A program made the position numbers and the translations under genes. Under the pieces are notes generated by a model that saw nothing but the letters and a program-made list of their open reading frames with translations, was not told the DNA's origin and did not search any database. From Shouchella miscanthi (GTDB lineage Bacteria; Bacillota; Bacilli; Bacillales; Bacillaceae_D): 64,000 nucleotides of DNA. Position 1 is the stretch's first letter. Each line of letters starts with the position of its first letter. Below are positions 30,827 to 32,262 of this stretch, piece after piece. Location: positions 310,001 to 374,000 of the forward strand of contig NZ_CP042163.1 of assembly GCF_007725405.1 (NCBI RefSeq), given 5' to 3'.

Positions 30827-31713
30827 CTAACCTTTTTCATGATCCTTGTCTTTTAGCACTAGCATGACACCAACCAAAATGAATAAGCAACCTATCCAAA
30901 ATGTAATGGTGATCGTTTCCCCTAATAGGAACCATCCTAATAACGCTCCAACTACTGGTTGAAAGAAAAAGAAAATTCCTCCACTTGAAGCATTTAATAG
31001 GTGTAATCCGCGATTCCATAATAAAAACGCTATTGATGTCGAAATAACTCCTAAATATAAAAGACCACCGAGAATAACTGGGTCTTTAAAAACGTGGAAA
31101 TCTAGTTCATGTAGTGTAGGCAAAACAATTGGCGTTAGGACTACCACTGCTATTAGCGTAGCATATGTTGTTACAACTATTTGTGAGTAATGACTTGGTA
31201 ACAGTTTAATTAAGACTGACATTAGCGCCCATGTTAATGCTGCTAAGACTAATGTTAAACCACCAATCATACTAGAAAACTCAATACGATCTATCCCTAC
31301 AATAGTAATAACCCCTATAGTTGCTAACAAAACAGAAATTGCTTTTTTTACTGTTAATCGTTCCTTTAAAATGAGGCTAGCAAAAACAACCATAAAAGCT
31401 GGGGTTGTCGCAGTAATAATAGCGCCCATTTGAGGGTCGAGAGCATCGTACCTGTTTCTTGAGCGACAATCGAAATGACATATCCTATCACTGCAATCAA
31501 TAAAATAATAAGCAAGTGATTTTTTTTGATTCTCCATTTCTGTTTGGATATCAAGCCAATAATGACCAATGCCACAAGTGCGATGAGATATCTCAACCAT
31601 ACAAGCTCTAGTGGTGGAATGACGGCTACTAATAGTTTTACAACAACATACATTCCGCCCCAAATGCTTGATGCAAGTATAAGAAATAAAGAACCTGATA
31701 GTGATTTTTTCAT
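30827..31713 (-). pseudogene. EamA/DMT-family exporter, frameshifted
   Basis: Ten-helix drug/metabolite transporter read in two frames. The N-terminal half (MKKSLSGSLFLILASSIWGGMYVVVKLL... to VISIVAQETGTMLST) ends its good frame near 31440. The rest (PQMGAIITATTPAFMVVFASLILKERLTVKK ... KDKDHEKG) continues in the +1 frame. Adding one C to the CCC run at 31434-31436 would restore STPQMGAIITATTPAF, so a single-base deletion in a homopolymer explains it. It could be a true mutation or a sequencing error. The start ATG 31713 follows CGGAGGG. Upstream lies a leader-peptide region that can hide this ribosome site. The substrate is unknown. Confidence 0.8.
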
Positions 31714-31866
31714 TTTTTACCCTCCGAATAGTTTGACTCATTGATTTGAGCCTAACGGAGAGTGGTATTTCTCATTTGTATTCTCCCCATTAAGCCTTGG
31801 AGAATACAAATGGTACATCATTTTCAAAAAGCGGTTTATAAAACATGGAATTACCTCCTTTATTGA
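31711..31866 (-). promoter_or_regulatory. Candidate translational attenuator with two leader peptides upstream of the EamA exporter
   Basis: Reading the minus strand: AAGGAGG (31856-31850), then the leader ORF described separately. Its last codons form the 5' arm of a perfect 14-bp hairpin (31812-31799 with 31786-31773). The 3' arm contains a second ribosome site GGGGAG and start ATG (31775) of a mini-ORF MRNTTLR ending in TAG at 31752. Inside that mini-ORF CTCTCCG can pair (7 bp, one G-U) with CGGAGGG, the ribosome site of the exporter. A ribosome stalled on a leader would open one helix and expose the next site. This nested arrangement resembles erm, cat and tet(L) leaders. It is inferred from sequence only. 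Confidence 0.55.
31790..31846 (-). CDS. Leader peptide, 18 aa (MFYKPLFENDVPFVFSKA)
   Basis: ATG 31846 follows AAGGAGG by seven bases, a strong ribosome site for an 18-codon frame. Codons 12-16 (CCA-TTT-GTA-TTC-TCC) are the 5' arm of a 14-bp hairpin, and the stop lies in the loop, a geometry typical of regulatory leader peptides of antibiotic-resistance genes. I do not recognise the peptide. Confidence 0.5.
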   Translation of the reverse strand: MFYKPLFENDVPFVFSKA

Positions 31867-32129: not shown

Positions 32130-32227
32130 GCTTTATTCAGAAGTTGACAAATGGAACATGAGGACTTGTAGATGACAAAGTTTAGTTGAAGATTTGCGCT
32201 GCCCTTTACGTTTGTTTAAATAAAGCA

Positions 32228-32262
32228 GAGGACATTTCTAAATTGAAATGTCCTCTTAGTTG
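32228..32262. terminator. Hairpin downstream of the SDR gene
   Basis: Perfect 12-bp arms AGAGGACATTTC / GAAATGTCCTCT with loop TAAAT; T tails on both sides are weak. Nearest user is the minus-strand SDR, whose stop is at 32271. Confidence 0.6.

Follow-up and report, generated by a model that had tools for sequence, protein, structure and literature searches.

What does a short open reading frame (ORF) do in front of an exporter gene, and could a ribosome on it decide whether the exporter is made? The question arises in a 64,000-nucleotide (nt) stretch of Shouchella miscanthi DNA (contig NZ_CP042163.1, positions 310,001 to 374,000), hereafter the window. On its minus strand, a strong ribosome binding site (RBS) and a leader ORF of 18 sense codons precede a gene for an EamA-type exporter. 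An earlier note on this DNA had proposed an erm-like attenuator here, working in two steps through a second small ORF. We conclude that the leader is very probably part of a cis-acting translational attenuator of the EamA exporter, an erm-like switch of four RNA segments with what would be a new arrest-type leader peptide. Comparison of related sequences gives a conserved peptide core, a conserved geometry, helices with compensatory change and, in the window copy, no terminator-like site.

Three helices in the leader RNA

The elements described in the earlier note are present in the window: the leader and its RBS, a perfect 14-bp pairing of the last leader codons with a segment that holds a second RBS and ATG, and a CTCTCCG within the second ORF that can pair with the exporter RBS. 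We number the pairing segments 1 to 4 in the order of the RNA (Table 1). Segment 1 forms the 14-bp helix with GGAGAATACAAATG of segment 2, which ends in the ATG of a mini-ORF and overlaps its GGGGAG. CTCTCCG (31762-31756), in segment 3, pairs with CGGAGGG, segment 4, over 7 bp including one G-U. A third helix, of 13 contiguous bp with three G-U, joins the other half of segment 2 (GCTTAATGGGGAG) to segment 3 (CTCTCCGTTAGGC). This 2:3 helix competes with both 1:2 and 3:4, and it is the switch helix that the relatives back. A minus-strand RNA of 191 nt folded at -50 kcal/mol, against -35.3 +/- 4.0 for shuffled sequences (z -3.69), and none of 200 shuffles reached so low a value.

A conserved leader core upstream of EamA genes

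Are leaders of this kind found elsewhere? We surveyed 397 genomes of the order and 398 genomes across the phylum, the window genome included. Searches with the EamA protein are blind to the leader; rows selected by the core pattern have peptide conservation by construction. In the order, the protein search (E up to 1e-70) gave 49 matches in 46 of the 397 genomes, and inspection of the upstream DNA found a leader with the core E-x-D-[V/Q]-P at 43 of the 49: 34 V-type, the window among them, and nine Q-type. The Q-type leaders (FENDQP or LENDQP; L247-L250 and L252-L256) precede a more distant EamA clade and have the same switch architecture; one of them, L250, has the core and no ATG, GTG or TTG start. 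The core was not seen, by eye, at the remaining six matches, of which L226 reads a decayed LFENDVH followed by a stop. The phylum-wide protein search gave 17 matches in 16 of 398 genomes. The leader stands before seven of these, all at 52% identity to the query or more, while the ten at 43-52% identity have no E-x-D-x-P frame in the 300 nt upstream.

Searches that began from the peptide led back to the same gene family. Back-translated PLFENDVP matched 24 times in 21 of the 397 order genomes, counting the window, a paralogue in the same genome and a same-species copy; every one of the 24 is a short ORF with an EamA gene behind it, and the reversed pattern matched twice. In a wider genome collection the core pattern found at least 117 stretches. 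The matches listed comprise 104 short leader ORFs and 13 stretches of other kinds; 95 of the 104 have an EamA-type motif just downstream. As for the other nine of those listed, L045 and L151 end with the stretch, L078, L105 and L135 have EamA remnants, L042 has no exporter, L084 has a different EamA subfamily, L096 an unassigned protein and L132 a B3/4 protein. The hosts include Bacillaceae, Paenibacillaceae, Alicyclobacillaceae, Sporomusaceae, Desulfitobacteriaceae, Peptococcaceae and lactobacilli. A close EamA gene is also found in 11 plasmid records; four were examined, and the leader is present on two plasmids of Priestia megaterium and one of Niallia taxi, with none on the fourth, from Selenomonas.

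The 42 cores of the order survey are written in 29 distinct DNA sequences; the regular expression behind this count prescribes E, D, the last P and the V/I/Q position. The residues that directly follow the proline vary, as would be expected of residues not yet translated at the moment of arrest. A covariance-model search gave 33 matches, seven of them at E about 1e-7 or better and all seven leader-EamA pairs; a further search with such a model added one, a Propionispira case (E 5e-18).

The weak covariance-model matches that became loci include no short leader with hairpins before an EamA gene; another three yielded no locus. We rejected L178, L187, L193, L195 and L206, in which similar letters lie inside ORFs of at least 81 codons; L210, with FFENDVP near the end of a frame and neither hairpin nor EamA; and L181, which adjoins a 48% EamA and lacks the core.

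Some loci look like relics. The leader is kept and the exporter lost or internally deleted in L042, L078, L105 and L135; in L226 it is the leader that looks decayed.

Support for the switch across the family

For the RNA comparison we started from 125 distinct leader rows. Dropping 12 without a standard exporter start left 113, and dropping L007 and L072, which lack the required strong Shine-Dalgarno (SD) sequence, left 111 regions. From these came 47 non-redundant representatives (similarity below 0.86), of which 45 were aligned (L141 and L161 were left out). The swap test compares native helix partners with partners exchanged between sequences, register-free, in 2000 permutations. Native partners were better for every helix, both in the 111 regions (z -14.9 for 1:2, -12.8 for 2:3 and -6.6 for 3:4) and in the 47 non-redundant ones (-9.3, -9.7 and -5.5), with 0 of 2000 permutations as good in each case. 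The control pairings core:2 and core:3 gave no signal.

The alignment of 45 sequences tells the same story for the two helices that share segment 3. Covariation in the 2:3 columns was 0.301 against 0.227 in shuffled alignments (0 of 500), and at most 0.188 when the columns were slid. This helix takes in the leader stop codon, whose second base forms an A-U pair in 32 of the sequences and a G-C pair in 8. Helix 3:4 is paired in 96.1% of cells, and its covariation was matched by 1 of 500 shuffles. The spacing is kept as well: from the end of the proline codon to the end of the stop codon, 102 of the 111 leaders have 18 or 21 nt. Alicyclobacillus leaders (e.g., L083) build the same architecture from wholly different letters, CCCTTCGC / GCGAAGG / CCCTTCGC / GCGGAGGG, and in the nine Q-class regions swapped partners hardly ever did as well as native ones for 1:2 and 2:3 (0 and 1 of 2000). 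Conservation of the leader frame and the helices among relatives, on which the earlier note had made its proposal depend, is thus what we find, compensatory changes included.

A ribosome at the end of the core would open the exporter RBS

Where would a ribosome have to stand to throw such a switch? We folded each of the 47 regions with a ribosome on every leader codon. With no ribosome, mean accessibility of the exporter RBS was 0.07. The mean gain was +0.21 with the P-site on the aspartate codon of the core, +0.20 on the valine and +0.11 on the proline; three codons away from the proline in either direction it had dropped to 0.04 or below, and farther out it was about zero. In the window itself, accessibility rose from 0.001 to 0.49, with its peak when the P-site was on V11. 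Joining a leader to the region of another locus reduced the gain to 0.07-0.09, against 0.20 for native combinations. The nine Q-class regions, found later and outside the set-up of the analysis, also gain most at the aspartate codon and the one after it (+0.24 and +0.18). Hence the RNA alone marks the end of the conserved peptide, with the proline at or entering the A-site, and this is the strongest argument for an arrest peptide. We infer that the leader encodes such a peptide, on which the ribosome would stall at the end of the core.

The switch would then work as follows. At rest, a ribosome would translate the whole leader and leave, and the RNA would fold into 1:2 and 3:4, the latter concealing the exporter RBS. 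Under the inducing condition the nascent ...LFEND[V/Q] chain would stall the ribosome, most likely when Val or Gln occupies the P-site and the conserved Pro the A-site. Segment 1 would then lie under the ribosome, and segment 2, which holds the leader stop codon, would be free to pair with segment 3. This 2:3 pairing would release segment 4, and the EamA exporter would be translated. Translation of the leader, the stall and its exact codon are predictions, as is the idea that the exporter would export the inducer or a related compound.

Weighing the evidence

Several observations weigh against this switch as drawn, or against its reach. Scored at fixed columns, helix 1:2 does no better than its shuffles (covariation 176 of 500), and only the register-free swap test backs it; the column result probably reflects shifts of register between lineages. 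The number of pairs changed on both sides is unexceptional (51 of 500 shuffles for 2:3 and 76 of 500 for 3:4), RNAalifold, run on the alignment, predicts 3:4 only, and the control pairing 1:4 gave a weak signal in the redundant set (z -2.5, 7 of 2000), though not in the non-redundant one (-1.2, 227 of 2000). The compared sequences are mutually related, and the swap tests correct for kinship only in part. Within the Q class, native 3:4 partners have no clear advantage over swapped ones (111 of 2000), and in some regions the RBS is partly accessible even with no ribosome present (0.03 to 0.40). Four loci (L100, L114, L129 and L136) lack the standard four segments. By a loose test, an SD-like motif lies within 20 nt upstream of 94 of the 111 leaders and is absent in 17. 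The simulation assumes a footprint of -14 to +16 and predicts only a partial gain: with the P-site on D it exceeds 0.3 in 32% of regions, and with the P-site on V in 26%.

Could the mini-ORF nevertheless be the second step of a relay, in which the leader ribosome frees the second RBS and a ribosome on the mini-ORF then breaks 3:4? The window copy has an RBS-like GGGGAG and an ATG, and some second ORF with an upstream SD is found in 41 of the 111 regions; most of these are GTG mini-ORFs from Bacillaceae and Paenibacillaceae. For ermB, a second leader peptide has been reported as needed (excerpts of PMC8274638). However, a second ORF with ATG and an upstream SD occurs in only 4 of the 111 regions, and 70 of these leader-bearing regions have no second ORF by the same test. 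Moreover, the 2:3 helix, which takes in the leader stop codon and covaries, would have no role in a relay. With these counts, a relay is not the common mechanism of the family. We consider it very unlikely here. What stands of the earlier proposal is translational attenuation of the EamA gene by the leader ORF; the passage through a second ORF gives way to a one-step switch, with a 2:3 helix supported across the whole set.

Two further explanations were weighed. Attenuation could depend on uncharged tRNA, with the ribosome pausing at a starved leader codon and the peptide playing no role, and several different codons of so short a leader could each report starvation. Yet amino acids of the 8-residue stretch are kept despite synonymous codon change, the conserved stretch ends where the footprint model puts the ribosome, and the core lacks the repeated regulatory codons that his and trp leaders carry. 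We judge this explanation improbable. Control could also lie in transcription attenuation or in Rho, replacing or adding to control of translation; Rho may also shorten untranslated mRNA, as for toiL-topAI (excerpts of PMC12121999). Against this, no terminator-like site was found between leader and exporter in scans of the window and of its paralogue L002, the two loci scanned; segment 4 is the RBS itself; and in the listed regions the stretch from RBS to start is mostly rich in A, with a few short U-runs. We consider such control most unlikely.

Between the leader stop and segment 3, L018 and related loci have a GTG mini-ORF that runs to the TAG of CCGTTAG. The frame, present in many Bacillaceae and Paenibacillaceae regions, may encode a second peptide or may simply follow from the helix letters.

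The exporter gene and its paralogue

Table 1. Features of the leader-exporter locus in the window
Feature	Positions	Strand	Sequence, basis or remark
Leader SD	31860-31853	minus	AAGGAGGT; sequence
Leader ORF	31846-31790 (ATG at 31846)	minus	MFYKPLFENDVPFVFSKA, then stop; 18 sense codons + TAA (31792-31790)
Conserved core codons	31811-31834	minus	PLFENDVP; family consensus F-E-N-D-[V/Q]-P
Predicted arrest codons	V11 31816-31814 (P-site); P12 31813-31811 (A-site)	minus	predicted stall
Segment 1	31812-31799	minus	CATTTGTATTCTCC; fold and swap test; would be covered by a ribosome stalled at V11/P12
Segment 2	31795-31773	minus	31786-31773 (GGAGAATACAAATG) predicted to pair with segment 1 at rest
Segment 2, other half	31795-31783	minus	GCTTAATGGGGAG; last leader codon, stop and TGGGGAG; predicted partner of segment 3 when the ribosome stalls
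Segment 3, anti-SD	31762-31750	minus	CTCTCCGTTAGGC; predicted partner 4 at rest, 2 when induced
Segment 4, EamA gene RBS	31726-31720	minus	CGGAGGG; sequence
Second mini-ORF, 7 codons	31775-31752	minus	MRNTTLR, then stop; RBS-like GGGGAG 31788-31783; not conserved in the leader family
EamA (PF00892) exporter gene, putative regulated gene	30827-31713 (start at 31713)	minus	frameshifted
Terminator-like hairpin just 3' of the upstream gene	32227-32256	minus	terminator scan

From the leader stop to the EamA ATG is 76 nt. The exporter gene of the window is interrupted by a one-base frameshift near 31430 that leaves two pieces (31366-31713 and 30827-31741). In a genome of the same species (G313) the gene is intact, and the frameshift may therefore be a recent mutation or an assembly error. 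An intact EamA paralogue with its own leader, MFYAPLFENDVPVALSRS, lies elsewhere in the window's genome (L002; G000:C1:3383305-3384213). Its protein falls below every NCBIfam cut-off for known EamA exporters (2A78, YedA, YddG, cysteine exporter, RarD): the best score is 112.8 bits against a cut-off of 230.2 for TIGR00950, and YddG gives 50.7 against 300. The best NCBIfam matches are models of amino-acid or metabolite exporters. No Rfam family reached its cut-off, the weak matches being microRNA and small nucleolar RNA families. There was no PDB sequence match and no PADLOC match.

Relation to known leaders

TnaC and SpeFL are nascent peptides that sense a metabolite and control genes handling it, acting on transcription. 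The leader described here would share with them sensing by the nascent peptide, but its control would be at translation. SecM arrests with proline in the A-site, as we predict for this leader; here the chain would be 7-12 residues long (10-11 in V-type leaders), the motif is another, and we saw no link to secretion.

In architecture the leader resembles ermC and ermB. There, a hairpin formed at rest conceals the RBS or start of the target, and a stalled ribosome permits an alternative hairpin that shares a segment with it and sets the site free (excerpts of PMC10219788 and PMC11264731). Shared are the short leader ORF, the rest helix hiding the RBS, and the mutually exclusive 1:2/3:4 and 2:3 pairings; the stall is, here, predicted. 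The target differs, being an EamA gene rather than an rRNA methylase gene, and it is neither cat nor tet(L). In addition, the leader stop codon lies within the switch helix and the core is kept across many families. By eye, the peptide looks unrelated to ErmBL and ErmCL. At the toiL upstream ORF of Escherichia coli topAI, a stalled ribosome unmasks a downstream RBS and several antibiotic classes are sensed (excerpts of PMC12121999); a ribosome stalled upstream to open an RBS would be common to both, with another target and host here.

The leaders form a real, conserved family, very probably of arrest type and apparently undescribed in the open-access literature that we searched. The earlier note knew of no such leader for an EamA gene, and our searches, some of them covering only the 20 best-ranked papers, in which no EamA or DMT family transporter appears, found none either. 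The family would be a new and widely distributed group of arrest-type peptides with a short core and a precise predicted arrest codon, and that codon gives ligand screening, toeprinting and cryo-electron microscopy a direct entry point. The leader is also a handle on the substrate of a group of EamA exporters, may connect export with tRNA quality control, and suggests that in Bacillota logic of the erm type extends to the control of exporter genes.

What might the leader sense?

Perhaps the inducer of this same switch is a ribosome-targeting antibiotic and the exporter a drug efflux pump? The architecture is shared with erm leaders, and the predicted V-type arrest at residue 10-11 is within the range of drug-sensing leaders: ErmBL stalls at its tenth codon (excerpts of PMC8274638). 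On the other side stand the NCBIfam results, with the EamA protein below all cut-offs and closest to amino-acid or metabolite exporter models, and the gene context described below, which an amino-acid or tRNA theme fits better, if weakly. We regard an antibiotic inducer as quite possible, though short of probable.

The context consists of csaA genes and of one B3/4 protein under the leader. At 12 of the 125 leader loci a csaA gene is found on the same strand, no more than about 1.3 kb away; three of the 12 are partial matches, and many of the 125 loci have 1.5 kb of flank only. A csaA gene is also found in two of the four plasmid regions. Examples of csaA neighbours are L002 (337-705), L047, L020, L211 and L213. 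In L002 the exporter end and the csaA frame overlap by 4 nt when csaA is read from its first possible start. Nine of the 12 loci fall in one clade of the EamA tree, which is a quick tree; Alicyclobacillus (L047), L020 and L146 fall elsewhere. The csaA protein resembles Trbp111, and tRNA binding has been suggested (excerpts of PMC11286949). Among Pfam gene neighbours there is no dominant partner, and tRNA_bind appears in 3 of 119.

The B3/4 case is in Lacticaseibacillus kribbianus (L132:5096-5835), where the leader precedes a protein of the B3/4 tRNA-editing type (PF03483) across a shorter intergenic region. A stand-alone B3/4 protein removes canavanine from tRNA-Arg and is upregulated by canavanine (excerpts of PMC10018355). 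On plasmids, B3/4 proteins appear in 28 records, all below 60% identity.

Together, the csaA neighbours and the B3/4 target hint at an amino-acid-like inducer. A fuller picture, which we offer tentatively and hold to be rather unlikely as a whole, is that FEND[V/Q]P, as a nascent peptide, senses either a toxic compound resembling an amino acid or what that compound does to tRNA charging, and turns on a stand-alone exporter. In some lineages tRNA quality-control proteins, a csaA-type tRNA-binding partner or a B3/4 editing-type protein, would join it, and the cassette would have moved to new targets (L084, L132 and L096).

Four loci depart from the usual arrangement in other ways. Lactobacillar L100 and L114 carry a compact form, MIAPLFENDVPF[VA]CR, about 30 nt from the exporter. 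In Propionispira raffinosivorans (L096:5936-6886) the leader and the hairpin letters precede a 270-residue protein with a Cys-rich end and no Pfam match. In Lysinibacillus macroides (L084:1543-1674) the EamA gene behind the leader belongs to a very different subfamily, which suggests a moved cassette.
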